Of a stretch of 64,000 nucleotides of DNA, positions 13,949-37,289 are shown piece after piece. The position numbers and the translations under genes are program-made. This DNA is from Lantana camara (Eukaryota > Streptophyta > Magnoliopsida > Lamiales > Verbenaceae). Positions within the stretch are counted from its first letter, which is position 1; the number at the start of each line of letters is the position of its first letter. The notes under the pieces were generated by a model that was not told the origin of the DNA, made no database searches, and saw only the letters and a list, made by a program, of their open reading frames with translations. The stretch lies in NCBI GenBank assembly GCA_037501455.1, contig CM074861.1, positions 93,101,001 to 93,165,000 of the forward strand, given 5' to 3'.

Positions 13949-13950
13949 TA

Positions 13951-13967
13951 AGCCCCCCAAAACATCA
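13951..13967 (-). other. Polypurine tract of element A
   Basis: On the minus strand GATGTTTTGGGGGGCTT lies immediately before the LTR start TGACGTGG. It fixes the orientation of the element. Confidence 0.88.
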
Positions 13968-14069
13968 GTTGTTAGGGCTGATGTGGCAGTGGCGTTTCAA
14001 TTTCCATGGGTGGGACCCACCATAATCATGGCGACGTTCCACCTTCTCGATTCCCGCCAAATTCACTCC

Positions 14070-14077
14070 TATAAATA
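14070..14077 (+). promoter_or_regulatory. TATA box of antisense gene A
   Basis: TATAAATA on the plus strand, 122 bases inside the LTR, upstream of the antisense gene. Element B has the same box in the same relative place (25902). This suggests the antisense gene has its own promoter instead of using the LTR. Confidence 0.65.
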
Positions 14078-14228
14078 GTTTTCTCTGTAAATTCATTTGT
14101 TACTTTTTGCGAAAGATTTCTGAAGAGAAGCTCCGAGCTATTCAGGTCGTTCTTAGTGTCCCTTGGGCATCGACTCTCGATCGTTCATTCCAAAGGAAGC
14201 AAACTCCGATCCTTTTCATACTCAAAAG

Positions 14229-14400
14229 GTACTATTTCGACTCCGTGCTCGATTAAGTTCTTCTTCTCTGTTTTATTTTTCTCGATTGCTTCGAGGGAGA
14301 GGTTTACCACTTCTCTCTTCGAAGGATCCCTCTCACTCGATTTGCCTGAATCCGTTTCCTTTAAGAATGAAAACTTTAGCTCTTTCAATCTAAATTGTAG
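14229..14400 (+). other. Probable 5' UTR intron of antisense gene A
   Basis: AAAAG|GTACTA at 14229 and AAATTGTAG|G at 14400, one base before the ATG at 14402. Element B has a candidate intron in the same position (26038-26185). Inferred from consensus and conservation, not from transcripts. Confidence 0.6.
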
Positions 14401-14401
14401 G

Positions 14402-15451
14402 ATGTCGATAAATCGAGATGAGACCGAGCCTGTGGGGATGGATGTGGGAAACGTAAGTGTGGGGTTGAGTTCCATCTCCGATTCGAGCTCAGATTCGTTG
14501 GACTCCGGGGTATTCGTGGAGACTAGATAGACAAACCCCCAAGGAAGGGATGAGGATGTCGACGTAGTGGAGGTATCTGATCTGCCACCAGTGATGGAAT
14601 TGGAAGAGGTTGCCGTACCTCGAGCAGTCGGAGAGGAGCCATCGACCTCAGGTCGAGGAGAAGAGGAAGAAGAAGATGAGGATGAAGAAGAGAATGTTGA
14701 GCCAGAGGGTCGGTTGGTGAAGGATCCTTGAGCTATTACACCGGAGTTATCTGGGGAGAAGTTTAGGGAGATCCAGGGCTGGCTGTTCGGTGGGGCGCCA
14801 GAGTTTGGGGGCTATCGAGTTATAAAGCCCAAGCCAGGAGATAGGATGACGAACCTACCCAAGAATTGCATTGCGGTCAATTACAAGGCGGTTGAGAATG
14901 GGTTTCGAGTGCCCATTTCCAAGGAATTGCTCGAGTTCTTCAATACTCTGAGGATCAGCCCACTTCAACTGATGCCCAACTCATATGCGATGGTGAATGG
15001 GCTAAGAGCCTTGTTGAGGTGCTTGGGGATGAGGACGAACATTTTTTACCTTTCAGAGATTTTCCAAGCCTCCTTAACGACCGAGACCTCTGCGCCGGGT
15101 CCGGGATACATCCAGCTCCAATCGAAGAGCAATTATCGAGTGATACGGTCGCCAACCACCTCAAACGGTGTGGGATGGAAACAAAGATTTATTTTCATTG
15201 AGTGTGAGAAGGGATGGCCCGACTTGAAATATCCGGGGTGGAGTTGGGTTCCTCGATCAAAGCTCCCGAGGGGGAACCCGGGCTGGCCGAACACCTTGAT
15301 GGCGGCCTTGAGAGATTTGGAAAGTGTGGAGTCGAAGGATATGATCGCTCCACAAATGTTGATCGAATTGGGACTGGCGCCGGGGGTTCGCAAGTATTTC
15401 GACCCTGGTATATCGAGCGAATCCTTCGAAGCAAGATCTTTATTTGTTTGA
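14402..15451 (+). pseudogene. Antisense gene A, first coding part (Transposase_28-like)
   Basis: The plus strand starts at ATG 14402 with an acidic, Ser-rich N-terminus; a stop follows at 14528-14530. A long acidic Glu/Asp stretch is readable to about 14700. The folded domain lies in the 201-codon frame 14846-15451 (NGFRVPISKELLEFFNTLRISPLQLMPNS, then GWKQRFIFIECE). This matches the plant 'putative gypsy type transposon' family (Pfam Transposase_28), whose biochemical role is unknown. Element B has a clear homologue (26718-27311). The frame ends at 15449-15451, near a predicted intron whose acceptor is CTTTTGCAG at about 15525. Confidence 0.78.
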
Positions 15452-15525
15452 GTGTGTTGTTTCTTGTTTTTTTTTTTGTTTCACTCTTTTTATGTCAAGT
15501 GCTTGATCGATATCTTTCTTTTGCA

Positions 15526-16240
15526 GAGAGATATATCATGTCTGCCTCACTCGCTGCCAGAAGAAAGGAGATAGCCGACCTGAAGAAGGCGGCCGAGAAG
15601 AAAAAACTTCCCCCTCCGACCGAGGCTGAGATCGCGGCAGCTCAGAAGTCTACGGTCGACGCGCTGCCTAAGGTCCTCAAGATGAGGATGGCCAATACCC
15701 CCGGGAAGCGGGGAAATGCTCTAGCTGGGGTCAAGGAAGTGGAAGCCCCCCAACCCAAGAAACAAAAGACACACCGCCATTCCTCCAAGTCTGTGGTCGA
15801 GGCAGATAAGTCGAAGGAAAAGGGTCGAGAGAAGACCCCCATGCTCCCGATGTCTCCAATGTTCGAAGTCCAGGTCGGCGAGTTCTCAACTCCTCCGAAT
15901 CAAGGTCGCGAGGCTATCGTGCCTTGAAACGTCGCCAGCGTCTTGGCCGGGGTTCGAAAGCCCCCACACGGTGGTCGACTGACAGTTGCCATTCCCTGGA
16001 AGCCTAGTGAGGAAGATATGAAGCTCTTCTTTGACTACCCAGAGGTCCAAGAGCCTCGATTTCCTGGCGGTCTCTAGAGTTTAAATGATAAGGGTGAGCC
16101 TCGATGAATTGGCACGACCCCCAAGGACTACACGACGATCAGAGCCTTATCCAGCTCGATGTAGACCGAGGTCGATCACAAGGAGCGTTGGGAGCTCGAG
16201 GATGATGAGGTCGAGGCCTCTTGGGTTCAGAAATATTATG
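15526..16240 (+). pseudogene. Antisense gene A, second exon (basic linker)
   Basis: After the TTTGCAG acceptor the frame reads SASLAARRKEIADLKKAAEKKKL and a Lys/Pro-rich region with putative nuclear-localisation-like clusters (PKKQKTHRHSSK). An in-frame TGA stops it at 15925-15927; further stops occur near 16075, 16125 and 16160. A GTAAGT donor at 16241 ends the block after EASWVQKYYA. The element B homologue has the same arrangement, ending at a GTAAGT donor at 28083. Function unknown; decayed. Confidence 0.65.
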
Positions 16241-16335
16241 CTGTAAGTGCACTTTATCAAGATTCCATCCAATTTTATCCTTGTTTTTCTATCAAGTTAT
16301 AGCTCGAATTTTAATGCTCGATCTGTCTTTATTAT

Positions 16336-17100
16336 GTGGGCCAAGACTTCTTCCATGTGGCTTGGAGGAGCTGGGTTCATCGTCAAATGCGAGAGAGGGC
16401 CGAGCAACAGATTGAACGGATGAGAATCGAGCTCGAGGAGAAGGATAAGAAGTTGGCTGCGGCCAACAAAAACAAGGAAGAGCTCGATAAAAATCTTCTT
16501 GAGGCAATCAAAAAGCTATCTGACACCGAGAAGAAACTCAAATCTGCTGAGGATCGGGTCACCAGGGTAATTCAGGAAGAGGTCGAGGCGAAAAATAGGG
16601 GCCTGATCGAGGGGGAGAGGAAGGGCGCAGCCTTGGCTTTGAGCAGATGCAAACGTGGCCTCGAGGAGTCTGTCTCCGACCTCGAAAGGCGAGGTGTGTA
16701 TCGATTCATGAACTCCAAAGCTTACACTAAGGTTGTCTCGATCACGAGGTTCAAGGACCTCGAGGAGGGCTTCAACTTATGCATGGCCCAGGTACAGGCG
16801 GCCAATTACCTTTCGATGGACTATGATGAAGAGAAGGTCGGCCTGTACCAACATGACCCCCGCCCCGTAGAGCCTGTTACTCGACCACCTTCCCCCGAGC
16901 TCGGCTGGGACCAGGAGGAATTTGGTTTTGCTGTGAAACTGGCACGATCTAGATTCACAGGCGAGCCAGACAATGTATCAATGATGGAGCTTGACCTTGA
17001 AGCCTCATTCGATCCAAATGACATGTGCCCAGAGTATTTTGGGGATGCAGCGATCGTGCCTATCGAGGAAGGGACCGGAGATGGTCCAACCAGGAACTGA
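16336..17100 (+). pseudogene. Antisense gene A, last exon (coiled coil)
   Basis: Open for about 254 codons. Residues ~20-80 form a strong coiled coil (ERMRIELEEKDKKLAAANKN, KKLSDTEKKLKSAEDR). A conserved block follows (FMNSKAYTKVVS...EEGFNLCMAQV) that aligns with FCHSKAFNFAAS...KAFNLAIEQG of element B. The C-terminus is acidic and ends at TGA 17098-17100. The exact 3' splice site is not resolved (candidates between 16300 and 16350). This exon is intact as a frame, but upstream exons carry stops, so the gene as a whole is broken. Confidence 0.75.
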
Positions 17101-17624
17101 GCCAGAGAGAACATGCCAGCCCTATCTCTGTGCTCGAGAAAATTTGCTGAGAGGAGATCATACTTTTCCAGGGTTCCGACGGTCGAGGTCGGGCCCTTGC
17201 ATGTTTTAGAACTCGACTGTTAGGGTGAGTTCCCTTAGTCGTCGACTCGGGATTCATTGTAAATAGGTAGGAATCCGAGTGTTTGTTGCTCCCATTGGGA
17301 AAATCCAAATTGTAGTCAAGTGTGTGATCGAAAATAGTGTAATCGATACACTTTTGTTTTGAATTATTATGTAATTTCTTAATTTTGAGTAATTGAAGAT
17401 CAGTTTTGAGTTTTCCTTTGATGTCTTAGATAAATATTCTTGTGTTAATCGATGCATTTTGTCGAGAAAATGTCGAGGCAAGTACTCTAATCTTTCGAGC
17501 GAGTAACACTTTAATGAATACGAGCGTCGTAAAATAAAGGATACTAAGTAGCAGATCGAATAAGATACATATCGGAAAAAGGAAAAACTTTGTTTGTTCA
17601 TTGATCAAAAAGATACATAGTTGT
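17101..17624. other. Non-coding spacer between convergent pol and antisense genes of A
   Basis: Lies between the antisense gene stop (17100) and the integrase stop on the opposite strand (17625-17627). No domain in any frame. It would contain the 3' ends of two convergent transcripts. I do not see the 88-bp tandem array found in the same place in element B. Confidence 0.6.
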
Positions 17625-18700
17625 TTACAAGTAATATTTTTTCAAGTTGTGAGCATTCCATGATCGAGGCAAGGGTTTTCTATCGAGATCTTCAAGATGG
17701 TATGCTCGATTCTTGCCTATCTCGATGATACGGTAGGGACCCTCCCAATTAGCATCGAGCTTGCCCGCGTGCTTTGTAACCTCGACCTTCTTGAGGACTA
17801 AATCTCCGACTTGGAATTGAAGAGGTCGAAGGTCTTTGTTGTAAGCTTGAGTGGATGTGGCTCGATATTGTTGTATCTATATGTTCCCCTCTTCTCTGGT
17901 TTCACCTATTGTGTCGAGGTTGAAGGCTCGTAGCTCATCATTCTTTTCGTGTTGGAATTGTGCCACCCGAGGGGATTGATGAAGGATCTCGGCTGGTATC
18001 ATGGCCTCCGAGCCATACACCATTAAAAAAGGGGTTTGCCCAGTTGGAATTCTTAGGGTGGTTCGGTAGGCCCATAGGACGCCTTCTAGCTCATCGACCC
18101 AGTATTCCTTCTTTGCTTTGAGCCGTGTGCACAAGTTTTTTATGATGGTGCGATTGGTCACCTCGACCTGCCCGTTGGCCTAAGGATGTCCGACCGACAT
18201 AAATCTCTTACTGATCTTGAAATCTGAGCAATATGTCTTGAATTTTGAACTTCGAAACTGAGGGCCATTGTCGCATACTATGACTCGAGGGATCCCAAAC
18301 CTTGTAATGATATGTTTCCAAAGAAAATCTTGAAGAGCATGAAAGGTGATTTTCGAGACTACAAGCGCTTCGACCCATTTGGAGAAATAATCGATAGCTA
18401 GGATGATGAATTGCCTTTGTCGAGCCACGATCGGGAAGGGGCCTATGATGTCGATTCCCCACTGCTCGAAAGGCCAGGATGATTCGATTGGGATCATCTC
18501 CGTAGGGTGTTGGTGGGTTAAGTTGGCATGCTTCTGACATTGATCGCATCTTCTCACAAATTCGAGCACATCCTTGCGCATGGTGGGCCAAAAAAATCCG
18601 GCTCAAGATGTTTTCTGAGCAAGTGATCGCCCCCCCTGTATGATTTCGGCATGTCCCTTCATGGATTTTGGCCAGCACTTCTCGACCCTAGGACGGTCGA
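17625..18700 (-). pseudogene. Integrase of element A
   Basis: Minus strand. The second half of the zinc finger (CDQCQKH) is followed by the catalytic core: WGIDIIGPFP (first aspartate), VCDNGPQF (second). An in-frame TAG at about 18180 where CAG is expected (after SVGHP) is followed by the continuation with LWAYRTTLRIPTGQTPF. The C-terminal domain (FQVGDLVLKKVEVTKHAGKL, ANWEGPYRII, SWNAHNLKKYYL) reads on to TAA at 17625-17627. At least one more frame break lies near 17877. Recognisable but non-functional. Confidence 0.9.
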
Positions 18701-18705
18701 AGGCG

Positions 18706-19450
18706 TCATTTAGTGGGGCCGATGAAAGAACGCTTGTATAGACGACCCTCTTGGACGAGTGAGTAGCTTAGAGCACGGTGCTTGAGTCTCTTTGCTTCGA
18801 GTGGATCTTCAGGTAGGGTACCGTCTTGGAGATATAAGACTAATCCATCGAGCCCGCGGGGCTCGGCGTCGTCGATGAAGTTAACCTCTGGGATAGATGG
18901 GTTGATGGATCTTGCGGAGGAGGTCATAAACGTGATGGATCGATCCTTTGTACCAAGTGACCCACTGGCAAACTTGGAGAAGGCGTCCGCTCGGAGGTTC
19001 TGTTCTCGAGGAACCTGGGAGAGCTTGAGTTCTTTGAATTCCGATATGGCCTTCTTTGCTAAGGCTAGATATTTGATCATGAACTCTTCACGAGCTTCAT
19101 ATTGATTGCCGACTTGCCCTACGACCAGTTGAGAGTCTGTTAAGATAGTGAGCTTCCTGATGTTCTATATTTTTGCAATTTTTAGTCCTGCTAAAAGGGC
19201 TTCATACTCTGCTTCGTTGTTCGTCGCAAGATATTCAAGGGCGATGGCGTATTCGATCTGTTGCCCGCTGGTATTCGAGAGGGATACGCCGGCTCCCTCC
19301 CCTCCTCCTCCCAAAGAGGTCGAAGAGCCATCGACTGCAAGTGTCCAGATGATCTCATCGCGGGTCAGTGTCGGAGAGAGGTATTTTTTGACAAGGAAAT
19401 TGGCCAGGATCTGAGCTTGAGATGCTATTCGAGGGCGATAGGAAACCTCA
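18706..19450 (-). pseudogene. Second (archaeal-type) RNase H of element A
   Basis: Minus strand. An additional RNase H follows the ordinary one: DGSSTS at about 19330, TNNEAEYEALLAGLKIA near 19210, TDSQLVVGQVGNQYEAREE near 19110-19140, and VPREQNLRADAFSKFAS near 19000-18960. This second RNase H between RNase H and integrase is characteristic of Tat-lineage elements. A stop near 19168 and others interrupt it. The frame 19080-18706 extends through the linker into the start of integrase. Confidence 0.85.
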
Positions 19451-20064
19451 AATTGTCCAAGTTCGATCGCCCATTTGGTGAGTCTGCTTGAGACTTCAGG
19501 TTTTTCTATGACTGTTTTGAGGGGTTGATTGGTCAGAACTACAATGGGATGTGCCTGGAAGTATGGTCATAGCTTTCGTGAGGTGTGGACTTTAGCTAGA
19601 GCAAATTTTTCGATCTTGAGATATCAAACTTCTGGGCCGTGGAGAATCTTGCTAACGTAGTATATCGAGAGGTGCTTTCGATCTCGAATGGTGACAAGCA
19701 CCGAGCTGACTGTCTCAGTTGAAACAGCTAAGTACAAGTACAAGGTTTCTCTGTCGATCGGTTGTGCTAATAGAGGTGGTGACGTCAGGTATTTCTTCAG
19801 GTCTTCGAGGGACCTGTCGCACTCCGGAGTCCATTGAAGTCTTTGATGTTGCGGAGGATTTTGAAGAAGAAAAGGTTCTTCTCCGACGATAGTGAAATAA
19901 ATCGGTTTAAGGAAATTATCCGACCTACTAATCACTGGGCATCTCAGATCGAATTTGGTGTCGGGAAGAGCTATATGGCCTGTATCTTTGCTAGGTTTGC
20001 GTCGATTCCTCTTTGGCTTACCATATAACCAAGAAACTTTCCGCCCTCGACTCAGAACGTGCAT
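19451..20064 (-). pseudogene. RT connection and first RNase H of element A
   Basis: Minus strand 20064-19624 reads the thumb/connection (SRSDNFLKPIYFTI; WTPECDRSLEDLKKYL) and the start of RNase H (LYLYLAVSTETVSSVLVT, KHLSIYYVSKIL). In Tat elements this RNase H often has a degenerate acidic set. Here the first motif reads LAVS where many gypsy elements have DAS, so the leading aspartate is absent. A stop at 19624-19626 interrupts it and the rest continues in another frame. Confidence 0.85.
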
Positions 20065-20815
20065 TTCTCGGGGTTGAGTTTTAGGTTGTTCTTTCTGAGG
20101 AGGCTAAAAGTTCACTTCAGATGATCGAGATGGTCGAAGGCTTTTTCACTCTTGACGAGCATATCATCGACGTATACCTCGACTGTGCGATCGATTTTCA
20201 GCTCGAAAACTTTGTTCATCATTTTCTGGTAAGTTGCCACTGCGTTTTTGAGTCCGAATGGCATGACCTTAAAGCAATAGATCCCATTGAAAACTATGAA
20301 CGCTGTTTTTGGTTGATCTTCGATAGCCATAAAGATTTGTTAGTAGCCTTGAAAAGCATCCATCATGCTCAGTCTTTTGCACCCGGCGGTCGAGTCGACA
20401 AGTTGATCGATCCGGGGCAGGGGTAGGGATCCATCGGGCATGCCTTGTTCAGGTCGGTAAAGTCGTTGCACATACGCCATTTTCCACCTGGTTTTGGTAT
20501 GAGAATGACATTGCATAGCCATTCGACATATTGGATCGGTGTTATGTACCTAGCGTCGAGAAGCTTGTTAACTTCTGCCTCAATGATGGTGTTCTAGGAA
20601 TCGCTTTGAGGTCGAAATTTTTTCTTGATCGGCTTGTGAGATGGGTCGACCTTTAAGTGATGTTCGATCAATTTCCTGTCGACTCCCACAAGGTCGAAAG
20701 CGCTCCAGGCGAATACATCGAGGTTATCTCGAAGGAATTGTATGAGCATGCACTGTTCTTTGCCCTTTCGATCGGCTCCTATGCGAGTGATCTTCCCGGT
20801 TTGTCCAGGGAACAA
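20065..20815 (-). pseudogene. Reverse transcriptase of element A
   Basis: Minus strand, broken into three frames. They are 20815-20594 (FLRDNLDVFAWSAFDLVGVD and the start of the fingers), 20522-20340 (LPLPRIDQLVDSTAGCKRLSMMDAFQGY with the first catalytic aspartate) and 20330-20112 (VMPFGLKNAVATYQKMMNKVF and the VYVDDMLVKS active site). The YVDD box is intact, but stops and frame changes between the pieces make an active enzyme impossible. Confidence 0.92.
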
Positions 20816-20860
20816 CTGAATTTCTTCGAGTTCTTCTGTAGACTCAAGCTTTTTGTCTAC

Positions 20861-21745
20861 CTATTTTTTCCTTTTTGTTGCATGAGAGGAGCTCATTTTC
20901 TTGGAGTTCTTGGGGTCGATAGCATCAGGGTCTGCGAAGTCATCTTCGATCATTAGATCATTGATGGTGGTCGGGACTTGCTTCCACGTTGGTGGTTTGG
21001 GTTTTTCCATCGATATCGAGTAACAGGTCCATGTCGTTGGGATGTTGCACTGCAATTCTCCGACCCCAACAGGGGTGGGCAGTTTTACCATCTGGTGGTA
21101 GGTTGAGATAACGGCTCGGAATTTGATCAAGCCTGGCCGGCCGAAAATGATGTTATACGCGGACGGCATTTCGACGACAAGATATTCAACCTCGCGTGTA
21201 GCGTGACGAGGGAGTGTGCCCATTGAAGTTATGAGTCGGACTCGACCTTTCATGTATACTTCAGCTCCGTCAAAACCTGTAAGAGGTGTTTGAATTGGAT
21301 CTAAGAGTAGTTTATCATGCAACTTCATGCGAACAAGAGTCGAATAAATGATAATGTTGCTAGAACTTCCATTATCAATTAGAGTACGAGATACAACAAA
21401 GTTGGCGACGTCTAGCGTGATGGTCATAGGACAACTAGGTGTCTCGCTCGAGCGTGCCGATACGTCGATTACATCATTTTCGCTAAAAACTACTTTTTCA
21501 TTGATCCAGGAGTCTTCAGGTCGGATGTGCATCACCTCTTGGGGGTCGTAGAAACTTTGTGCTGCTGCTCGCCTTGTTTTCTTCCGGGCTGACCTAGAGT
21601 CCCCACCTGAGGGTCCCCTAGCACTCATGTCAATTTGACCAAGGTATGGCCGATTGTGGGGGTCGCGTTCGGTCGAGGGTTTGGCTTGGCGTTGCCTCGG
21701 AGACGACCTATCGTGATTTTCGTGGTTTCGAGCATGATCGTCCAT
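20861..21745 (-). pseudogene. Protease region of element A (gag C-terminus to RT start)
   Basis: A 294-codon minus-strand frame. The upstream, contiguous sequence to about 21836 reads as the gag C-terminal half-knuckle region (FHQQKGHTISEYNALREEIERLI). The retropepsin motif is LIDNGSSSNIII at residues ~122-133, with D-N-G in place of D-S/T-G, and the flap/second motif is YNIIFGRPGL. The frame ends at 20861, and RT resumes in another frame at 20815. Whether D-N-G is tolerated cannot be judged from sequence alone. Confidence 0.88.
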
Positions 21746-21836
21746 CTTCTTGACAAACTCGAGAAGGTGCCCCCCTCTGATGAGTCGCTCGATTTCTTCA
21801 CGTAAGGCATTGTACTCGGAGATAGTGTGCCCCTTC

Positions 21837-23478
21837 TGCTGATGGAAGTTGCTGAATCTATTACTCTCTCGAGTCTTAGGAGTTTCTCTTATCGGATTGG
21901 GTTTTTTGAGAAGTGCGGGATCGATGACGTTAACGATCTCGTCAATCGGTCGCGTGAGCTGTGTGAAGTGCTTTCTAGGCGTTGGGCCGACCAGAGTACG
22001 TTCTTCGGGCGAAAGTCCTGTTTGGTTGGTCGACTGGGTTCTGCCTTCCTGCCTTGGGTCGGACTACGCTGAGAATTCTCGAGCTCTTCGAGCTGCATCC
22101 AATCCCAGGCAGCTGCTTGGATGTCGGCCAAATTTTGGGGCTTTTGTAGGAAAATATACCGAGCACATTCATTGTTGATCAGGGCTTTGTGGATAATCGG
22201 CTTCAATAGATTGATGCTTGGTTCCTCCGTTCTAACCACTGCTTGCGAAAAGCGAGTGAAGAAGTCTCTAAGGGATTCATGAGGACCTTGCCTAATGGTG
22301 TACAGGTAGGTCAGAGGGAGTTTGTCTCCCTTCATGGCGGAGAATTGGGTCGTAAACCGCTTGATGAGGGCCTTGTACGTAGGTATGAATCGAGGAGAAA
22401 GTCTCGAGAACCATTTCAGAGCAGGCCCATCGAGGGTGGTAACAAAAATCTTGGCCCAGATGGATGGGGAATAGCCGAACATGCTGAGCTACATCTCGAG
22501 CCACGACACGTGTTTTTCTGGGTCGGTCGATTCGTTATATGTGGGCAGGCCGGTCGGAATCTTTTCATCAGTGGTTGTTTCGATGATCGCATTGCAGAAG
22601 GGGGATTGAGCTTTCCTATCACTGCGGTATCTCTACGGTCGCGACATATGTTAGGTCGATGGCATATGCCGAGGGGATCTGGATCGATCACGCCTGGGAG
22701 AGCGAGACTGGATGGGAGAGCGGCTATAGGATCCCTGGCTCTCTCCGTGATATCGGTTGTCCTATCGACTGAGAAGTGGTGGGATTTGGCTCCTCAGATC
22801 ATCCGACCTTACGATGTGTCCCCTATTGGATCTCCTGATTTGATTTGGTCGATCGTGGGGTCCAAGTCGGTCGAAGATCCCGCTCGAGCCATGGCGAGAA
22901 ACATCATTTTGATGGGTGCCATGTTCCCTTCTTGACTCAGACCGTCGAGGGTTATCATTCCTCCTTCGGGACTGTGAGGGTCGAGACTTTTGTTGGGAAA
23001 CCTCTCGACCCTGGCGATCAGCGGCCCTGTGTATGTGGGTGTCCGTGGGGGTCCTAGAGTCGACCTCATCCTCCAGTCGAAAGGATAGTCGCTCTTGAAC
23101 CAGCCTTCTGGCTCTCCCTTGTGCCGGTAGTGGTTGATATTGGGGCTGGTGGTGTGTAGGTTGTCCGATCCTTGCCCAATATCCTACAGGTTGTTGATAC
23201 AGCACCGGTTGGATGTATCCGGGATGATTAACCATAGGCTGGACGACTTCAACGGGTTGAGTTTGAGGACACTCCGGCATACGTGGTTCTCTCCCTTCAG
23301 CACCAGTAGCTATTGCTTCATCCTGACACGTCTTTTGGTACTTGTCCAACTCGGGCGTTGAGTAGACCAGTTGGGGCGGGATGACGGTTGGTGCAACCAC
23401 TTGTATAGGGAATTGGGGAATGATTTCTTGCCCATTTTCGTCGAAAAGGCCAGTGCTAGTGAGATTCCGAGTAGTCAT
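21837..23478 (-). pseudogene. gag of element A
   Basis: Minus strand. The likely start is the ATG at 23478 (MTTRNLTSTGLFDENGQEI), just inside the primer site; an upstream in-frame ATG at 23565 lies within the LTR and is less likely. The N-terminal part (to 22762) is Pro/Gln- and Arg-rich. A frame change and a TAG near 22492 precede the gag core (IWAKIFVTTLDGPALKWFSRL, FTTQFSA, QGPHESLRDFFTRFSQAV), open to 21889. The core is the Retrotrans_gag domain that forms the capsid. Confidence 0.85.
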
Positions 23479-23502
23479 ATCTGATAGCTTATCGTTGCGT
23501 TT

Positions 23503-23520
23503 TTCCCATAGAAGGCGCCA
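23503..23520 (-). other. Primer binding site of element A
   Basis: On the minus strand TGGCGCCTTCTATGGGAA starts two bases inside the LTR end. TGG pairs with a tRNA CCA end; TGGCGCC-type sites are usual for Tat elements. The tRNA species was not assigned. Confidence 0.8.
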
Positions 23521-23522
23521 AA

Positions 23523-24040: not shown

Positions 24041-24372
24041 TGAAAATTAAATATCATGAAATTTGTTCGTATACGTCACAACTAAATGACCTTATTAATA
24101 TCTACGTGCTTTTGTTAAATTATTACTTAGACAAATTGTAAAGCATGGCTTTAAATGTCCCAGGAAACTTTTCTTGAATCTAAATAATTTTCATACACAT
24201 ACATGATTTATGTTGTAGATTAATATTTATTAAATCATAATTATGTAATTGAGGATATGTAAAAATCTACTCTGATCAGTTCTATTAGGACAAGCAATAT
24301 AATGATTTGATGAGATACTTTTTCTGCTCGGATATACTAAAGCGAATGTTAGATAATATATTTTATTTTATT

Positions 24373-26185: not shown

Positions 26186-26192
26186 CATCACT

Positions 26193-27311: not shown

Positions 27312-27435
27312 ATTTTAGGGCACTAACACGTAGATAGGAATGCTAACTTGTTTATTTCTGCACTTGTAACTTGCATATGGAGAAATTTGTCTAAGGGTTT
27401 TTAACCCTCGTTTCCACCTTCTTTACATGAGCAGC

Positions 27436-28082
27436 GATTTTAGAGATGGCCGGAGGAATCAGACACGCTGCCAGGTTTGCTAACGCCAACAGGTGTCAAG
27501 CCCAACAAGAGGAACAATAACGCCCCCGAGGCCGCGGAGCGGGCAGGGGGACACTCGTGGTGGCCAGCATGGCGCCAGCTCGAGTACGGCTCCCGGCGCT
27601 CAAACTCAATGAGGCCGAGGGGATAGCCGAGTGGCCAATGTGGAGAACAGGATTGTGGTGCGGCCACCTCCTGCGGCAGATTCGAGGGTGGCTGACCCTC
27701 GTGCAATCAATCAAGTTAGGCCCCCAACTGATGCGGTGACTAGCGGGGCCCAATCGAGCCCTGACCGGCCTTCCTGTAAGAGGAAGAGGATGCCCGACAC
27801 CCTCACAATAACGGGCAAGGGAAAGCAAGTTGGTGAAGGCCCCAAGGGCGGCGGAGAAACTTCCTCTTCAGAGGAAGAGCATCTGTGGGAGTTCACCCGT
27901 CGAGGGGATAGGCACTTCTCCGGCTCTGCGGATGGGGGTGCGGTTCTGTTGAGGCCTGGGACACTCGCTCAGACTGTCAGCAAGAATTTGTACGACAAGG
28001 CCCAATTTACCGCCGACCATAGGCATTTGTACACTGAGTCCGTAGAGACGGAGGCCTATGATATGGTGCACGCCATAATCTC
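27436..28082 (+). pseudogene. Antisense gene B, middle exon
   Basis: Begins after a plausible acceptor (ATGAGCAG at about 27435) with MAGGIRHAARFANAN, matching the start of the middle exon in element A. A frame break near 27520-27630 is followed by an open stretch (MANVENRIVVRPPPAADSR from 27631). That stretch contains KRKRMP and a Ser/Glu-rich segment, ending HAIIS at a textbook donor GTAAGT (28083). No known domain. The region is probably a disordered linker. Exon borders on the left are uncertain. Confidence 0.62.
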
Positions 28083-28176
28083 CGTAAGTTCTCATTCCCT
28101 TGCAATTTCACTATCTCTGGTAGGTATTACTTTCCCCCATTCTTGCTAACACTTTCATTTTTTCGAGCCCGGGCAG
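28083..28176 (+). other. Intron of antisense gene B (94 bases)
   Basis: Donor CTCC|GTAAGT at 28083 and acceptor CCGGGCAG|C at 28176, with a pyrimidine-rich stretch before it. Removal joins the two exons in phase 0 and keeps the frame open through the last exon. Element A has GTAAGT at the equivalent place (16241). Confidence 0.8.
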
Positions 28177-29124
28177 CAAGTACTCCCGAGGGCCAAAAAT
28201 ATTCAAATGCGCGCCTCAGTTTATGCTGATCGAAAAGCCAAGTACAAGAAAATGGCGTGCGTGAATGATCCCGCTCAAATCCAAGTGGAGCTGGACACTG
28301 AGAAGGCCAAGTACGAATCCCTCAAAGAAGTGTATAGAAAAATGGAGGACGAGATGAAGAAGCTACAGGGTGACTTTGCGAGCGCGGAGAACGCTCGGAG
28401 TAGTTTGAGCGACCAGTTGGCCCAACTTGGTGAGGGTTATAAGAAGCTTGAGGCCGAGCGTGACGGCTGGAGAACGAGGGCTCAAGAGGCAGAAAGGAAA
28501 TTCACTGATACCATGAACGAATGGCCTCAAATCCTTGAGCGAGCAAACAAGGAGGCGCTCGTCAAGTTCTGTCATTCCAAAGCCTTCAACTTCGCAGCCT
28601 CTCTGCACTGCTTAGACGAGGCTCAAAAGGCCTTCAACTTGGCCATTGAGCAAGGTATTTACAAAGGTCTGATAGATCCGGCCATGCGCGGGGCGGAAGG
28701 CACGGGGCTCGTGTTCAATGAGCGAGGCGAAAAGGATGACGAAGATCCTGAGGATCCTGAGGCCAACATTGCTGAGCCGGACTATAATTTTCTGGTTGAC
28801 CTTATCCAGAATGAGTACGTTGCGGCCCATCCTCTGAAAGGAGCCTCCCAAGCGCCACTAGATAACGCTCCTGTAAACGAGCCCCAAGCGCCTGCAGCAG
28901 AGAATGCTCCTGTTCCAGCTATTGAAAACGTCCCGGCTCCCGCCAACAATGCCAACGATCCCAACGCTCCACAAGGGCCTGCCAACAACGATCCTGAGCC
29001 TCCAGTGGCCCAACACCAAGGAGAGAATGCTCCTCCTGCACAAGAGCCAGTTGGTCCAGTTCATGGTCCTGTGGCCCAAAACATTTTGGTGATCTTGGAT
29101 GAAGATGTGGCTCCTGCGGCTTAA
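28177..29124 (+). CDS. Antisense gene B, last exon (coiled coil, Pro/Asn-rich tail)
   Basis: Open to TAA 29122-29124 from the acceptor at 28176. Order of features: a coiled coil of roughly 80 residues (QVELDTEKAKYESLKEVYRK, MKKLQGDFAS, AQLGEGYKKLEAERDGW); a conserved block shared with element A (FCHSKAFNFAAS, QKAFNLAIEQGIYKG); an acidic segment (DDEDPEDPEA); and a low-complexity Ala/Pro/Asn tail with repeated ENAP-like units. No enzymatic motif is visible. A structural or RNA/protein-binding accessory role is possible but is only inference. This exon is undamaged. Confidence 0.75.
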   Translation, partial: QVLPRAKNIQMRASVYADRKAKYKKMACVNDPAQIQVELDTEKAKYESLKEVYRKMEDEMKKLQGDFASAENARSSLSDQLAQLGEGYKKLEAERDGWRTRAQEAERKFTDTMNEWPQILERANKEALVKFCHSKAFNFAASLHCLDEAQKAFNLAIEQGIYKGLIDPAMRGAEGTGLVFNERGEKDDEDPEDPEANIAEPDYNFLVDLIQNEYVAAHPLKGASQAPLDNAPVNEPQAPAAENAPVPAIENVPAPANNANDPNAPQGPANNDPEPPVAQHQGENAPPAQEPVGPVHGPVAQNILVILDEDVAPAA

Positions 29125-30198
29125 GGCTCCTCTCCTTTCGCTTTTCTTACAACTCTTACTGTTTCCGTTTAGGGTTTCCCCCTTTTGTAATAACGCTTAT
29201 GGGCCTTTGAGCCCTTATTTTGTAATATCTGGCGTAGAGCCTCAATCAAATGAAATTCCTTCTTTTCATAATGCTGTCTTAGGCCGTTTTTCTTGAATTC
29301 GGAATTTTACTTGGCGCTTACTGTGAACAAGTCTTGTCGTAATAAGATTGTGTGTAACATGCTTAGTAAAATTGCATTACTCTGATAGGCCTTTGATACT
29401 TAGAAGATTTTGTTAAATCTTGTAAAACTTGAAAAATTTTACTAAGTCTTGAGTAATCGTGAGGGTCTTATTGTGAGGTTGCCCCCATCCAAGACTTGAG
29501 TAAATTTTTGCTTTTATACTTAGGGAGATTTTGCTAAGTCCTGAGTGATTATGAGGGTCTTACTGAGAGACTGCCCTCGTTCAAGACTTGCGGAATTCCT
29601 TCTTAACCTTGGGAAATTTTGCTAAGCCTTGAGTGATTACGAGGGTCTTACTGAGAGACTGCCCTCGTTCAAGACTTGCGGAATTCCTTCTTAACCTTGG
29701 GAAATTTTGCTAAGTCTTGAGTGATTACAAGGGTCTTACTGAGAGACTGCCCTCATTCAAGACTTGTGAAATTTCTTCCGAATGACACTGCCGTTAATCG
29801 AGCGCTACTGTGCCTGTTCACATTCCAGAGTGTGCCAGCGATCCCGTTTTCGAGCGCAAGGCGTTGTGACCAACTGCCAAGGCCTACTAGGATTTTCCTC
29901 GTATTTCTCTTCCCATTCAATAGGTTAGTTGTGAGCGTTACCAATCTATCCTTATGAGGGCGTCCCCCCACGTGGAGTAGAGTGCTGGCAAGTGTAACCT
30001 ATGTGTAATAACAATGTATGTATTGGAATGGACTGGTAACCACGTTCGTAGAGACGAGGGACGTGGGTCTTATCCATTCATGTAATTAAAAAAACAGAAG
30101 TACAAAGATTCTGAAAAGAATGTATTGCAATTTACTTGAAATTTGAAGTACATAGAACCCATGAACGGGGTTGTTACATCATCGTTTCTAGAGAGCTT
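29125..30198. other. Spacer between antisense gene and integrase of B
   Basis: No coding domain on either strand. It holds the 3' end of the antisense transcript (T-rich, with TGTAATA and TAATAACG stretches near 29190-29230), an 88-bp tandem array (29431-29785) and AT-rich sequence up to the integrase stop. Convergent transcription would overlap here. Confidence 0.7.
29431..29785. repeat. 88-bp tandem array in the 3' untranslated region of element B
   Basis: Unit starts at 29431, 29523, 29611 and 29699 (spacings 92, 88, 88), each beginning with a variant of GGGAAATTTTGCTAAG and containing GAGGGTCTTACTGAGAGACT and TTCAAGACTTGCGG. The two central copies are almost identical. The 3' untranslated region of Tat/Ogre elements is known to grow such arrays, which can seed satellite DNA. 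Confidence 0.92.
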
Positions 30199-31500
30199 TT
30201 AAACATAAAACCGCCGGAGGTTACATGCGTTCCAAGGGCGAGGCAAGCGCTCACCTTGAAGTGTCTCCAGGGTGTAAGTGTTGTTAGCTCTAATCTGGAT
30301 GACTTTGAACGGACCCTCCCAGTTGGGGTCCAATTTCCCCACATGTTTGGACACTTCCACTTTCTTCAAAACCAAATCTCCCAACTGGAAAGTCCTTTCT
30401 CGTACACGCTTGTTGTACTGTTGTGCCACAATTGCTTTATATATGTGTATTTTAGCCCAGGCCTTGTCTCTTCTTTCCTCCAATAGGTCCAACTCCAGGC
30501 TTCTGTTATCTTCATTAAGCTGAGGCTCGAAATAAGCTACACGAGCGGATTCATTTACAATCTCAGCTGGTATCATTGCTTCTGACCCATACACGAGCGC
30601 GAAAGGCGTCTCGCCAGTGGCCGCTCGTGGAGTTGTGCGATAAGCCCAAAGTGCCCCTTGCAATTCTTCTGCCAATTCACTCTTTTTGCTCTCTAGCATT
30701 GTTTTCAGATGTTGCAAAATGACCCTGTTGGTAACTTCCGCCTATCCATAGGCTTGGGGGTGGCCCACGGAGGTAAAGCGCTGTTCAATCCCCAACTCTG
30801 AACACCACTCCCGGGTGTCAGCTGCTATGAATTGGGATCCATTGTCTGAAATAAGCACCCTTGGAATGCCATATTTGCATATGATGTTCTTCCAAATGAA
30901 GTCTCTTACCACCCTGAAGGTGATTTTTGCTACGGCTTCGGCCTCGGCCCATTTGGTAAAATAATCGACAGCTAAAATGACAAACTTCTTCTGTCCAACC
31001 GCGATGGGCAAGGGGCCAACAATATCAATTCCCCACTGGTCAAAGGGCCAGGAGACATCTATAGGGATCATCTGAGCGGCTGGCAGTTGAGGGAGATTGG
31101 AATGGAATTGGCACTTAGGGCACTTTCTAGAAAACTCACTGGCGTCTTGGAGAACTGTGGGCCGATAAAACCCACTTCTCAGAATTTTCTTAGCCAGGAT
31201 ACGCCCTCCTGAATGATTTCCACAGCTCCCGTTGTGAATAAGTTCGAGCGTTTCCTTTGCCTGCGAGGGCCTTAGACATCTCATCGGTGGCCCCTGAAAT
31301 GACTTCTTGAACAGCCTTCCTTCAGAGTCTATAGAAAATCGAGGGGCCTTATTTCTAATTTTTCGAGCCTCTACCTTGTCAGTGGGACAAACCCCATCTT
31401 TAAGAAATCTGATAATATCATCAAGCCAACATGGCTCATGCGGATCAATCATAGCGACCACCTCCCTGGCAATTCTCTCCTTGATCAAAGGCTCTTCCGT
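30199..31500 (-). pseudogene. Integrase of element B
   Basis: Minus strand. Zinc finger (HNGSCGNHSGG with His residues; CPKCQFH), then the core with WGIDIVGPLP (first aspartate), ISDNGSQF (second), and the expected glutamate region right after an in-frame TAG at 30742-30744 (following SVGHPQAYG). This TAG is probably a CAG glutamine codon changed by one transition. The frame continues unchanged at 30717 with LWAYRTTPRAATGETPFALV, LGDLVLKKVEVSKHVGKL and the C-terminal PRPWNACNLRRFYV, ending at 30199. Apart from the nonsense codon the domain looks complete. Confidence 0.93.
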
Positions 31501-32100
31501 TCTAAGGAATGTGAGCGAACGCTCAGAAGTGCCTTCTAATGCCGAAGTAAATTTAGATAGAGCTTCGGTACGCTCGTTCTCTGCTCGTGGAACTTGAAGT
31601 AGATGGAATTCTTTAAACTTCCCAATGATCTCCCTGGCTTTGTTCAAGTACTGCACCATGGTGGTTTCTCGAGCCTCATATGTTCCCTCAATCTGGCTCG
31701 CAATTAACTATGAATCAACATAAGCAGTAATTCTGGAAGCTCCATTCTGAAAAGCAATTTCCAATCCTTGCACAAGGGCCTCATACTCTGCCTCATTATT
31801 GGTGACTTGAAAATCCAACCTGATTGCAAAGTCTAGCTCAATCCCATTGGGGTCTCTAAGGGCTATCCCTGCTCCTCCCCCTTGAGAGGTTGAGGAGCCA
31901 TCCGTGTGCAGGACCCATAACCCCTCGTTCTCCTGGGCAGCAGGTTCTAACCCGAAACGTTCAACCAGCAGATCTGCTACCACCTGCGCTTGTATAGCTG
32001 GTCTGGGCTTGAAGCTTAAGTCAAACTGACTCAACTCAATAGCCCATTTTATCAATCTTCCCGACACGTCCGGTTTGGACAACACTTGTTTCAAGGGCTG
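31501..32100 (-). pseudogene. Second (archaeal-type) RNase H of element B
   Basis: Minus strand. Motifs: WVLHTDGSSTSQGGGAGIAL (catalytic aspartate), VTNNEAEYEALVQGLEIA (glutamate), ITAYVDS followed by a TAG at 31708-31710 where glutamine is expected, then EARETTMVQYLNKAREII and VPRAENERTEALSKF. This extra RNase H upstream of integrase is the diagnostic feature of Tat-lineage elements. All acidic motif residues I can see are present; only the nonsense codon breaks it. Confidence 0.9.
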
Positions 32101-32520
32101 ATCAGTAAAGACCATTATTGAGTGCGCTTGAAAGTAAGGCCTCAATCGCCTTGATGCACTGATGAGGGCGAACGCAAATTTCTCGATTTCCAAATACTTC
32201 TTTTCCGCCCCTTGCAACGTTTTGCTCAAATAATAAACAGGCAAATGCTTACGTTCCCGCATGGCTATCAATACCGCGCTCGTTGCCTCGGCTGAAACGG
32301 AGAGATCCATAAACAGCCGCTCACCCTCAACGGGTTTGGTCAGGAGCGGAGCGCTCGAAAGGTAAGCCTTCATGTCTTGCAGCGCTTTTTCACATTCGTC
32401 CGTCCAAGCAAAATTACGAGCGTTTCTCAAAATCTTGAAGAAAGGAAGGTTTCTGTCTGCTGAGCGTGAAATGAACCTATTCAGGGAAATGACTTTTCCC
32501 ACCAGCACTTGCACTTCCCC
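32101..32520 (-). pseudogene. RT connection and first RNase H of element B
   Basis: Minus strand: LVGKVISLNRFISRSADRNL, WTDECEKALQDMKAYLSSAP, LFMDLSVSAEATSAVLI, KHLPVYYLSKTLQGAEKKY, EIEKFAFALISASRRLRPYF and FTDQPLKQVLSKPD. The usual first aspartate motif is degenerate (DLSVS), a common state in this lineage where the second RNase H is thought to take over. A one-base frameshift near 32519 separates it from RT. Confidence 0.88.
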
Positions 32521-34333
32521 GTAGGTTTCGAGGGGAGGGGATCTCCAAAATAGCCTTGATTTTCTCAGGGTTGGCTTCAATTCCCCTCTGACTGACCATG
32601 TAGCCCAAGAATTTTCCCCCTCGTACTCCAAAGGTACATTTTGAAGGGTTCAATTTCATCCCATACTGGCGCAAGATGGAAAAAGTGCGCTTGAGATCAT
32701 CCAGATGTGAGTCCTGGCGCTCGCTCTTAACAATCATGTCGTGAACATAAACCTCCATGGATCCTCCAATTTCCTTCTCAAATATCCTGTTGACGAGTCG
32801 CTGATACGTGGCTCCAGCATTCTTGAGTCCAAAAGGCATGACTAAGAAGCAGTAAATCCCCAAGTGGACAACAAATGAAGTTTTGGGGCGATCCTCGGGA
32901 GCCATAAAGATCTGATAATACCCCTGGAAGGCATCCATCATGCTCATGAGTTCACACCCTGCGGTTGAATCCACCAGTTGGTCTATTCTGGGCAATGGGT
33001 AAGGATCCTTAGGGCAAGCCTTGTTAAGATCAGTAAAATCATTGCACATGCGCCATTTGTTTGCGCTCTTGGGCACCAACACCACGTTGCACAGCCATTC
33101 TGGGTACAAGATGGGCTCAATGTACTGAGCCTCCAGAAGCTTGTTAACTTCTTCCTCAATAACTCTTTTCCGAAAACCATGTACATCCCTATTCTTCTGC
33201 TTGATGGGCTTAAACGAGGGATCCACGTTAAGCCTGTGGACATTGACGCTCGGGTCAATCCCTGTAAGATCAGATGCTTTCCATGCAAAAACATCAATGT
33301 TTTCTCTGAGAAAGTCAATCATCATAATCTGCGAGGGTCCAGAGAGGTTGGACCCAATTTGGGTAGTTTTATCCTTGTTTCCTGACTCTAGCTCAATGGT
33401 GAGGAACTTTTCCGAGGGCTCAATCCTTACTTCTGGGCGGGGAAGTTCGAGCGCCCATTTTTTTCCTGTCAAGCGCCCATCTTCAAGGGGCTCACCACCC
33501 TCACGCTCGTCTTCCTCTGAGGAGGATTCTTCTACAGTTCCTGGCGGAGCTTTTCGAGGGAGCCTTTTGCACTGGGATCTTTCTTCTTGTTCTTTTTCCT
33601 GTTCAATTTGGCCCTCTTGCACACGCTCATCTAGATTGGGAAAGTCAACAGATTTCTTGGTGGACCCAATTTGGAAAGTTTTCTCAGCCTTGGGCTTTCT
33701 GAGGGACAACATATAACATTCCCAGGCTTCTCGCACATTGCACAATATTTCTCCAATGCCCTCGGCGGTGGGAAATTTGATTTTCTGATGGTAAGTGGAG
33801 ATGATAGCTTTGAAATCAACGAGGGCCGGACGCCCGATTATGATGTTATAGGGAATATCAATCTCCACTACTGCATATGTAACCATGAGCCTTTTGCGCT
33901 GCGGGGCTCGGCCGAATGAAGTGGCCAGACGAATTTGCCCTCGTGGGACGACCTCCGAACCTCCAAAGCCAATGAGGGCTGTTTTGAGAGGTTCAAGCGG
34001 GATGTTAGTAACATTCATCTTCAAGAACGTGGAGTAGGGCAAAACATTGACAGAGCTTCCACTATCCACTAACACCCTTTTTACAATGTGATTGTGGACA
34101 TCTACACTAACCACCATGGGGCAGTCAGAGGTTTCACCATCCCCATGGGGTGTTACAATGTGCCCTAAATCCCTATCATCAAAGCCTATTACATCGTTTT
34201 CTCTTGAGCGTGGTTCATTCGTCTCCTGAATGGCGTAGATGGGTTTGGGCATTGATAGGCGTTGGTCATAACTCCGAACGTACCGTCGCCGGGTAGCGTT
34301 AGAGTCTCCACCAGAGGAACCCCCTGCTATCAT
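32521..34333 (-). pseudogene. Protease and reverse transcriptase of element B
   Basis: A 618-codon minus-strand frame. Protease: VLVDSGSSVNVL with the active aspartate at residue 90 (canonical D-S-G), and IPYNIIIGRPALVDF as second motif. RT: WLCNVVLVPKSANKWRMC, PRIDQLVDSTAGCELMSMMD, VMPFGLKNAGATYQRLVN, then the active site reads VYVHDMIVKS. Histidine replaces the first aspartate of YVDD at residue 531 (codon at 32741-32743). That aspartate binds metal, so polymerase activity should be lost. A frameshift near 32519 ends the frame. Confidence 0.93.
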
Positions 34334-34339
34334 GTTGAT

Positions 34340-36369
34340 GACCGCGAAAGGGGTATTTTCTTGCTCAGGAGCCTTTCCTTTGCCCCGATGGCTACTCTCC
34401 GTGGGGCCTCGCCTCCGCGGGCTTCTAGAGTGCGACGGGCTCCTTCTTCTTTCCCCGGTGTGCTCGTTACAACGCTCATCTTAACGCTCCAAAATCCTGA
34501 CAAATTCCTTCAGGTGGCCCCCAGCAATGAGTCTTTGAATCTCCGCTTCCAGCTAGCGGCATTCATCCGTGTCGTGCCCCTTTTGTTCGTGGAAAGCGCA
34601 ATACTTGTTCGAGCGCCTTAGTGACTCGGTTTCCCTCATCTTGACGGGTCTCTTGAAGAGTTTCTTATCAGAGAGGTTATAGACTTCTGAGTTCGGCCTT
34701 GTGAGCGGGATGCGCTCGAAACCTCAAGGGAGCGGGGGCTATCTTTTGCGTTCCTGATGACGCTCTTTTATAACAATAACTTCCCTGCCCCGCTCCTGGG
34801 GGCGCTCGTTTCTTGCCGGGCTGTGATGTCAGGGACCATTCGTCCCATACATGTCTTTGAGCGCGAAAAACGGCTCGGCAACTTCCCTCAAGGCCATGAG
34901 GGTTCCAGGCCTTCTCTCCACAATGGCATCAGCAAACTTTTTGCTTACATACTGTTTGTGATCCATAGCCTGAAAGAGCACTGGGATCAAGAAATCCATA
35001 GATGGCCTCTCCACTTGTAAAATCTCCTTGTTGAAGCAAGCGAAGAACGAGCGAAGAGACTCGTTCTTGCCTTGCACTATGTTGTAAAGGGCAGTGGGCG
35101 CAGTGACTGGAGCCTTCAAAGAATTAAAATGGTTGAGAAAAGCGTCGGCCAACTCCTGATATGAATGTATCGAGCGTGGCGGCAGTCGCTTGTACCATTC
35201 TTGAGCCATTCCCACCAGGGAAGTGACAAAGACTTTGGCCCAGTAGTTGCTTGAGTGCTCATAGAGGTGCATCAAGTGCAGAAAATGATCCAAATGTTCA
35301 GCTGGATCAGTTGTTCCGTCGTAGCGGTTGACGGAAGTGGGGATCTTGGCCATTCTTGCTTGGGCCATCAAAACTTCTTCCACGAGGGGGGAGCCCCTCG
35401 CCAGTGGATGGTATTCATACGTGCAGAAGTTCTCCTCCTGCTCCTTGCGGTGGGGGACCCGTGGCTGGCGGTCCTTGTGACGAGCATCTCTGGCATCGGC
35501 TCGTTCATCCCTGTTGTGGGAGATCTGAGACCGCGCTCGAGAGAGCTGTCCAACCATGTTCTTTAAACCCTGTAGCTGGTCTTGTACAGCCGCCAGGATT
35601 TTAGGATTCACATCTCCTTCTTTGTCCCCTTGCTTGGTGGCTCGGGAAGCCCTTTTGGAGGCATGAGAGTCCCCTTCATTTTCATTGATTCTTTCGGTGG
35701 GCTCCCTGTTTCTGTCCACAGGGGGACGCTCGTTGTCGCCTTTGCGGGCGGTTGTGGCGGTTGCTCCCTTAGGACGGCCTGAGCCTCCCTAAGCGGGTAA
35801 GTTTATAGTCCGGCCAAAGGAGCGGCAACTTGAGTGGCCTGCCCAGAGGGGAAGTGCATGGAATGGAATCTTTCTCATGCCCCCTGGGCCGCCTGAACCT
35901 CACATTGGGCGTAAAGAGCCCTTAGTTGCTGATGAGATAGAGGAGGTAACTCCACTCCTTCAATCTCCCTGGGGATCACCACCGGAAGCTGGATCTGGCC
36001 GGCATGATAGGGTTGAACCGGCGGCACCATGACGGTGGGGGTAAGCGTGTAACCTGGCGGCGGCATCATGAAGGACTGACTTCCTGGACTCGCATGGGTA
36101 TGAACCCATTGAGTCTGGGGAGGCTGTGGAAGAGTATGGAGAGAAACACCTCTAGCGGTGCCGGAAACTGGTAGTGCTGGTGGCGCTGGTAGCGCTGGTG
36201 GTGGAATTGTAGATTCTGCAAGGGGAGTCACACCTACAGCAGGTGGTGCTCCTCCAGCGGCGACGGAAGGAGGCAGGGTTCCGCCAGTGGCGGTGGAGGG
36301 AATAATGATGTTGGCATCCTGGGAAGTGTTGTCTCCTCCTCCTACAGCTCCGCATCTCGTAGCTACCAT
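34340..36369 (-). pseudogene. gag of element B
   Basis: Minus strand. The first ATG after the primer site is 36369 (MVATRCGAVGGG), leading a Pro/Ala-rich N-terminus to a stop at 35875. A frame change precedes the second part (35719-34829), with the gag core (AKVFVTSLVGMAQEWYKRLP, YNIVQGKNESLRSFFACFN). The C-terminal part to about 34500 is readable in broken frames: CAFHEQKGHDTDEC, a half-knuckle typical of Tat gags, and AEIQRLIAGGHLKEFV just before the protease frame. Confidence 0.87.
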
Positions 36370-36435
36370 GGTTGAGAAGATTCTGGGTGTTTGTTTTTCA
36401 ACTAGCAGAAGGAAAGAAAGGGATAGAGAACTGGT

Positions 36436-36453
36436 TTCCCACAGACGGCGCCA
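36436..36453 (-). other. Primer binding site of element B
   Basis: The minus strand reads TGGCGCCGTCTGTGGGAA four bases inside the LTR end. The TGGCGCC core is shared with element A. tRNA species not assigned. Confidence 0.85.
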
Positions 36454-36457
36454 AAAA

Positions 36458-37289
36458 TGATGGGTTCTGAATATGGGTTACAGAGTCCGATCACTTTAGA
36501 ATTTGTTTAGGAGGGGAAAGCCAGTTGAAGTTCGCCAGAAAATATGGGGGTTCTACCTGCTAGGACAAGCACACAGACAAAGTCGGAAGGCCAAGCTACG
36601 GGAACTGGGGGTGATTCCCAGTTTGGCTCTCCGACGCTCAAGTCAGATGACGATCTGAAAGAGAAAATGTAAGCTGAGTAAGAAGTTACTGTAATGGAGG
36701 TTGCTTACAGAGTTGGAGATGAAGACTCCTATTTATAGTTGAGGGTCAGGGACCCTTTAGTCATTTGCATCGTGTGGTCCTGGCCGAATGTTGCCCTAAC
36801 ACGTGGAGTTGCGAGAGAAACCTAGGAGGAATATTCTCTGCAAAAGCGGGTGAAAAGTGGTGTTGGCAACAGTGGTAGGTGCGCGGGCATGTACGATGTG
36901 TCAGAGAGCCGTTTGGGGAGTTGGTAACGAGGGCTGGAGAGCACGCTCGTTGTCAACTAAAGCCTTGGTGGCCAAGGAATCCGCTAGGGGATGAGGGCCA
37001 GGGCTTGTGTAACGAATTGGAGCGGAAGCCTCCCTGAGGGAGTGTAGCGCTCGAAGAGGGCTTCCCTTGGTTGATTGGAACGTTGGCCATGTAGCGGGAA
37101 TGGCGCTCGTGAGAGAGCGGTCACGTTGATCATGTGTATACGTAATAGAGTTGACGCACGTCTTTGAAGAATGCTGGCGCTTGGAGGGTTTCAGTGCTCG
37201 TGCATGACTACCGTAATCGCAGGACAGGTGTCGTCATCTTTGAAGTGTCACGTGTCCAAACGTGGGACGAGCGCATTTTGACCCCATCA
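36458..37289 (-). repeat. 5' LTR of element B
   Basis: 832 bases, TGATGGGTTC...CCCCATCA, nearly identical to 24734-25562 with a few substitutions and short indels (for example AGTAAGAAGTTAC against AGGAAGTTAC). GAAGT follows as the target duplication. Confidence 0.95.

Follow-up and report, generated by a model that had tools for sequence, protein, structure and literature searches.

Antisense open reading frames (ORFs) of the TRP28 type were reported in 97% of clusters of Retand retrotransposons, with no similarity outside transposable elements (Vicient 2025, PMC11963269). In the accessible part of that report, 104 antisense ORFs are counted separately, 11 of them with SMC-type matches, TRP28 is predicted to bind DNA, and a regulatory role is suggested. 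For gene23 of Grande, the accessible part of an earlier report describes transcription from its own promoter and a nuclear product, discusses double-stranded RNA (dsRNA), and calls for study of antisense and spliced transcripts (Vicient and Casacuberta 2020, PMC7264820). Hence, for Retand and Grande the literature already covers an antisense gene with a promoter of its own, a product located in the nucleus, and dsRNA as a possible role, and the core idea is not new. Here we analyze two retrotransposons, elements A (13369-24043) and B (24734-37289), in a 64,000-nucleotide stretch of the Lantana camara genome (assembly GCA_037501455.1, contig CM074861.1, positions 93,101,001 to 93,165,000; hereafter the window), which is plant DNA crowded with long terminal repeat (LTR) retrotransposons. 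The sense strand is the minus strand in both elements. On the plus strand, between the 3' LTR and the end of pol, each carries what its sequence indicates to be a homologous gene in which a TRP28 region is followed by a coiled coil, with a shared phase-1 intron, a TATA box and a candidate 5' untranslated region (UTR) intron; the gene was once coding and is now decayed.

This arrangement resembles that of the Retand TRP28 elements in the antisense TRP28-like gene between pol and the 3' LTR, in a further antisense coiled-coil or SMC-type ORF, in overall sizes, and, in B, in tandem repeats near pol; unlike the published elements, A and B score below the curated cut-off for the domain, and introns go unmentioned in the available Retand text (PMC11963269). 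As in Grande, the antisense gene lies upstream of the 3' LTR, and the TATA boxes of A and B are in the matching place; unlike gene23, whose transcription and nuclear location were described (PMC7264820, available part), the genes of A and B are known from sequence alone. The retroviral antisense genes HBZ of human T-cell leukemia virus type 1 (HTLV-1) and APH-2 of HTLV-2 are likewise at the 3' end (PMC11963269, PMC8622228, available parts), and spliced antisense transcripts have been reported for HTLV-2, -3 and -4 (PMC8622228, available part). However, the HTLV promoter is in the 3' LTR and that of A and B just inside it, and the likeness is one of analogy only. The order in both elements is TATA box, candidate 5' UTR intron, TRP28-like exon, phase-1 intron, linker exon, possible intron, and coiled-coil exon:

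14070-14077, plus strand: TATA box of A (sequence, order-1 resampling)
14229-14400, plus strand: candidate 5' UTR intron of A (splice-site ranks, T-rich)
14401-15407, plus strand: exon 2 of A, with ATG at 14402, TRP28-like domain and 2 stops
15408-15526, plus strand: phase-1 intron of A (best of 10 in-frame pairs; resampling)
15527-16242, plus strand: exon 3 (linker) of A, with 4 stops
16243-16341, plus strand: possible last intron of A, with GTAAGT donor; end set by comparison with B
16342-17100, plus strand: exon 4 of A, with coiled coil and SKA...FNL block; stop at 17098-17100
25902-25909, plus strand: TATA box of B (sequence, order-1 resampling)
26038-26185, plus strand: candidate 5' UTR intron of B (splice-site ranks, T-rich)
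26186-27306, plus strand: exon 2 of B, with ATG at 26193, TRP28-like domain and 1 stop
27307-27434, plus strand: phase-1 intron of B (best of 15 in-frame pairs; resampling)
27435-28083, plus strand: exon 3 (linker) of B, frame broken within 27509-27612
28084-28176, plus strand: possible last intron of B, with GTAAGT donor and weak acceptor
28177-29124, plus strand: exon 4 of B, with coiled coil and SKA...FNL block; stop included

To assess the phase-1 intron, splice sites were scored against an approximate plant consensus, and every in-frame GT-AG pair separating the TRP28 domain from the exon that follows was compared within fixed ranges. The top scorer among the 10 such pairs in A and the 15 in B was of phase 1 in both, and an in-frame intron as good or better arose in 0/1000 (A) and 17/1000 (B) order-1 resampled sequences. 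A preliminary description of this DNA, which had proposed a conserved splicing plan, did not list this intron. It had placed 5' UTR introns directly before the two ATGs, and these candidates held up, with good donors (rank 7/144 in A and 3/132 in B), fair acceptors (3/253 and 13/241), and T-rich sequence. The GTAAGT donors that it reported at 16241 and 28083 are present but start at 16243 and 28084; GTAAGT stands at matching places in the two genes, and it occurs twice in the A gene and once in the B gene. The last-intron segments are in the top 4.1% (A) and 1.5% (B) of sequence windows for T-richness, and in-frame stops lie between the exons. The highest-scoring donor of the B gene region (AAG/GTATTT, at 28655) directly follows the FNL block in exon 4, probably by chance.

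Several findings weigh against a single spliced protein gene. Within the range searched, no in-frame GT-AG pair exists for the last intron of A, which we rejected as a working intron of the present copy; in B, the acceptor at 28176 ranks 96/241, and 28167 scores better. The splicing plan is conserved in its phase-1 intron and doubtful in its last one, and the whole exon plan is less certain than the shared intron. The linker exons of A and B have no detectable similarity (99/1000 shuffles were as good), and although both end at GTAAGT as had been described, the basic character ascribed to them hardly applies to B (lysine plus arginine 14.0%, aspartate plus glutamate 13.4%, compared to 16.8% and 13.9% in A). 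The exon 2 products match PF04195 at 18.0 bits (A, E 0.0034) and 24.6 bits (B, E 3.1e-5), both under the curated cut-off of 26.2 bits, and the AlphaFold model of the TRP28 exon is unusable (predicted local distance difference test score [pLDDT] 38.6). Finally, the gene model comes from two elements read as sequence, and the regulator role proposed below is argued by analogy.

Some of these points would also be expected if each element carried two or three separate antisense ORFs, with the T-rich gaps as spacers rather than introns and exon 3 starting at its own methionine. An ATG does lie a few codons past the phase-1 junction in both elements (methionine is the fifth codon, split codon included), the last intron of A is unpaired, and the available text of PMC11963269 counts its antisense ORFs singly and never uses the word "intron". 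Yet, A and B agree in the phase of their best in-frame GT-AG pair, which few or no resampled sequences equal, and the gaps are T-rich with plant-like splice sites. We consider separate ORFs rather unlikely, and we favor a spliced gene in the parents of A and B.

That this gene encoded a protein is implied by the comparison of the two elements. A six-frame comparison (tblastx) of the antisense regions returned one significant chain of three pieces, on the plus strand in the exon frames (linked E 8.1e-15), in which the TRP28 piece alone scored 68.4 bits; the next best linked set, on the minus strand, had an E of 0.049. No significant nucleotide similarity was found between the two regions by blastn (best E 0.18). 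The TRP28 exons are 29% identical over 146 amino acids (E 1e-16). As the preliminary description had claimed, the last exons share a coiled coil and an SKA...FNL block (E 4e-4), an alignment matched by 0/1000 residue shuffles and 0/1000 heptamer-block shuffles, and by 6/1000 shuffles for the part from the block onward alone. The proportion of nonsynonymous differences (pN) was 0.526 and that of synonymous differences (pS) 0.812 in the TRP28 exon, and 0.55 and 0.82 in the last exon; because pS is near saturation, pN < pS does no more than point to past purifying selection. The broken stretch of B (27509-27612) was excluded from these protein comparisons and from stop counts.

The state of the reading frames is consistent with this conclusion. 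In-frame stops number 6 in 825 codons in A and 1 in 867 codons in B, compared to 36 and 38 (A) and 40 and 59 (B) in the other two forward frames; the opposite-strand frames of the exons, with stop sums of 19, 19, and 30 (A) and 15, 30, and 33 (B), are also below the other forward frames. Neutral decay since insertion, dated by LTR divergence, would give 3.9 stops (1-8) in A and 1.5 (0-4) in B, where the simulation also excluded 27437-27508 and thus covered 842 codons compared to the 867 counted. The observed stops are close to these values, and the damage therefore fits a gene that was intact at insertion and then decayed neutrally. Neither copy, as its sequence reads, is able to make the full protein now. 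Since similarity is confined to the antisense frames, pN is below pS, stops are few, and the phase-1 intron is shared, a once-selected antisense protein gene is supported. The preliminary description's "real selected gene" is thus upheld for past selection and not for the present copies, which are broken.

The same data bear on whether the antisense RNA itself, rather than a protein, is the functional product, pairing with genomic RNA to form dsRNA and small interfering RNAs that limit copying, an idea already in print (PMC7264820; PMC12786077; available parts). Full-length sense RNA would be complementary to the entire antisense gene. However, conservation of the protein in the antisense frames, with pN < pS and without significant nucleotide similarity, implies selection on protein, and we regard function as RNA in place of protein as improbable. 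Protein and dsRNA effects may coexist. Moreover, the convergent overlap with pol that had been suggested as a dsRNA source was not found, the two coding parts being separated by 1.07 kb in B and by about 0.5 kb in A, where the distance is taken up to the limit of the alignment with B. A captured host gene carried as a passive passenger without a role for the element is very unlikely: introns and a promoter are host-gene features, but the gene is conserved between two divergent families, and TRP28 is nearly constant in Retand and confined to transposable elements according to the available text of PMC11963269.

The TATA sequence TATAAATA occurs on the plus strand at 14070 (A) and 25902 (B), as claimed. 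By order-1 resampling, the chance of finding it between the LTR end and the ATG is 0.0018 in A (452 bp) and 0.0072 in B (630 bp); both strands counted, the octamer occurs 22 times in the window. One weak blastn match between A and B (E 2.1) spans both antisense TATA boxes. Sense TATA boxes in the 3' LTRs (13640 in A and 25010 in B, minus strand) point in the opposite direction, which places the U3 of the 3' LTR between two divergent promoters, where it may act as an enhancer of the antisense gene. Perfect short inverted repeats adjoin the polypurine tract in both elements (13962-13984 in A, arms of 7 and spacer of 9; 25582-25601 in B, arms of 8 and spacer of 4), with chances in a 61-bp stretch of 0.047 and 0.010 for features chosen post hoc; such a repeat could serve as a palindromic site for binding or form a hairpin in RNA. 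A sigma-70 promoter scan was set aside as not applicable to plants.

Both exon 2 products resemble Transposase_28 as described earlier, albeit below the cut-off, and this is likely the right domain name judging from the profile matches. The last exon is helical, with a heptad contrast reached by 1/500 (A) and 3/500 (B) shuffles. AlphaFold gave a long helix (residues 32-132) in the last exon of B, with block pLDDT values of 60-91, in a model that is poor as a whole (mean 55.3, predicted template modeling score 0.24). Short motifs resembling nuclear localization signals, such as KKQK (A) and KRKR (B), are present. Sub-cut-off Pfam matches (ATP-synt_E, Exonuc_VII_L, and coiled-coil families) were not accepted as identities, and a PDB profile search gave one chance-level match (E 0.23). 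Protein searches with the TRP28 regions of A (from an 826-amino-acid reading) and B (371 amino acids) yielded 2394 and 389 word-sharing candidates, respectively, none with E <= 0.001, in a collection that probably lacks these plant proteins. Pattern searches of viral contigs with B TRP28, A TRP28, a B pol ORF, and B reverse transcriptase (RT) gave 3, 1, 20, and 8 matches, and genome contigs gave 10 with B RT, with no confirmed relative; an RT-motif pattern had 0 matches in viral contigs. The patterns were poor for RT, and absence of relatives in these searches means little. The RT-motif pattern had 1 match elsewhere, a Tat-like RT motif at 3086-3120 of a 4661-bp contig titled Streptomyces clavifer, possibly plant contamination of that assembly. 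Scans for tRNAs and Rfam families gave 0 matches.

A and B are Tat-clade Ty3/gypsy elements, best placed in Retand. Their remaining parts are as follows:

13369-13948, minus strand: 3' LTR of A (blastn; outer boundary placed visually at TG..CA beside the polypurine tract)
17625-22563, minus strand: decayed gag-pol of A (stretches aligned to B by tblastx; Pfam RNase H domains)
23523-24043, minus strand: 5' LTR of A (blastn to the 3' LTR; outer end apparently missing)
24734-25562, minus strand: 3' LTR of B (blastn)
30199-35788, minus strand: gag, protease, RT, RNase H, second RNase H, and integrase of B (Pfam)
36458-37289, minus strand: 5' LTR of B (blastn)

By blastn, the LTRs of A are 91.4% identical over the aligned part (13369-13890) and those of B 95.9%, with ends TGATGGG...CCCATCA and flanks GAAAT/GAAGT (4/5 bases alike). 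All B domains exceed Pfam cut-offs except the protease, whose match is below it, and A has decayed counterparts. The ORF at 31708-32649 of B contains RT_RNaseH/RT_RNaseH_2 and then RVT_3, all above cut-off; in A, RT_RNaseH_2 and RVT_3 are in two ORFs in the same order, and the integrase is recognized only via alignment to B. RVT_3 would be the additional RNase H (aRH) of the Tat clade, and in B it lies between RNase H and the integrase ORF (30742-31707), the position that marks Ogre or Retand, the angiosperm Tat elements (PMC6317226, available part). Ogre shares this clade and domain order, but the intron known in Ogre belongs to the sense strand and separates gag-prot from RT, and the extra domain typical of Ogre is the plant mobile domain (PMC6317226, available part). 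Sizes of A (LTR about 580, internal 9574, pol-3'LTR 3676 bp) and B (829-832, 10895, and 4636 bp) are inside the Retand ranges (315-1194, 7380-12869, and 2933-6566 bp; PMC11963269, available part), and the antisense TRP28-like ORF matches the Retand trait in position and strand, though its PF04195 scores fall short of the cut-off. In protein, A and B share 38-67% identity over the principal gag-pol stretches that align (tblastx), compared to 29% for the TRP28 exon. Tandem repeats of ~90 bp at 29419-29778 of B, between the antisense gene and the pol end, are a common Retand feature.

Elsewhere in the window are Copia gag-pol remains (1131-3900) and a gypsy pol (8529-10696) with a chromodomain match just under cut-off; the latter may have its LTRs in the 300-bp direct repeats at 4774 and 11106. 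A tandemly repeated stretch (44122-52690, ~5.1 kb apart, 83-100% identity in pieces) contains two ORFs without a Pfam match.

Together, these results suggest that A and B descend, as old copies, from two divergent Tat elements of the Retand type, and that each parent had one antisense accessory gene between pol and the 3' LTR. Its mRNA would start about 0.1-0.4 kb inside the 3' LTR, adjoining the U3 of that LTR, and would be spliced by the host. The introns would survive retrotransposition because copying proceeds from RNA of the opposite strand, on which these splice sites are unread. The product may be a dimeric nuclear regulator of the element, with a role comparable to that of retroviral antisense proteins such as HBZ, and any dsRNA effect would be secondary. 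We give this full statement, regulator role included, a probability of roughly 0.6; that the parental gene was a spliced protein gene is somewhat more probable. At a minimum, A and B probably hold two decayed copies of a real, formerly selected antisense gene whose kind is already known.

The word "intron" was absent from the available texts of PMC11963269 and PMC7264820 in a word search, and no description of introns in an antisense TRP28 gene was found in the open-licence literature, titles being judged among the matches listed. Thus, what is possibly new is the proposal that antisense ORFs so far counted one by one are the exons of a single spliced gene, with introns kept as the copied RNA is the other strand. 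Its extension to Retand as a whole, as one ancient intron-containing gene kept on the uncopied strand, with the idle U3 of the 3' LTR as enhancer and the product feeding back on the element, is tentative. Nearly all recently active Retand elements have antisense TRP28 ORFs, which still call for an explanation, and the shared phase-1 intron is the part that deserves follow-up. A spliced gene model names the junctions to seek and offers a simple reason for intron survival in a retrotransposon. Should the splicing prove real, a single protein would replace the antisense ORFs catalogued today as TRP28, SMC-like, or unknown, and a regulatory function could be put to a direct test.

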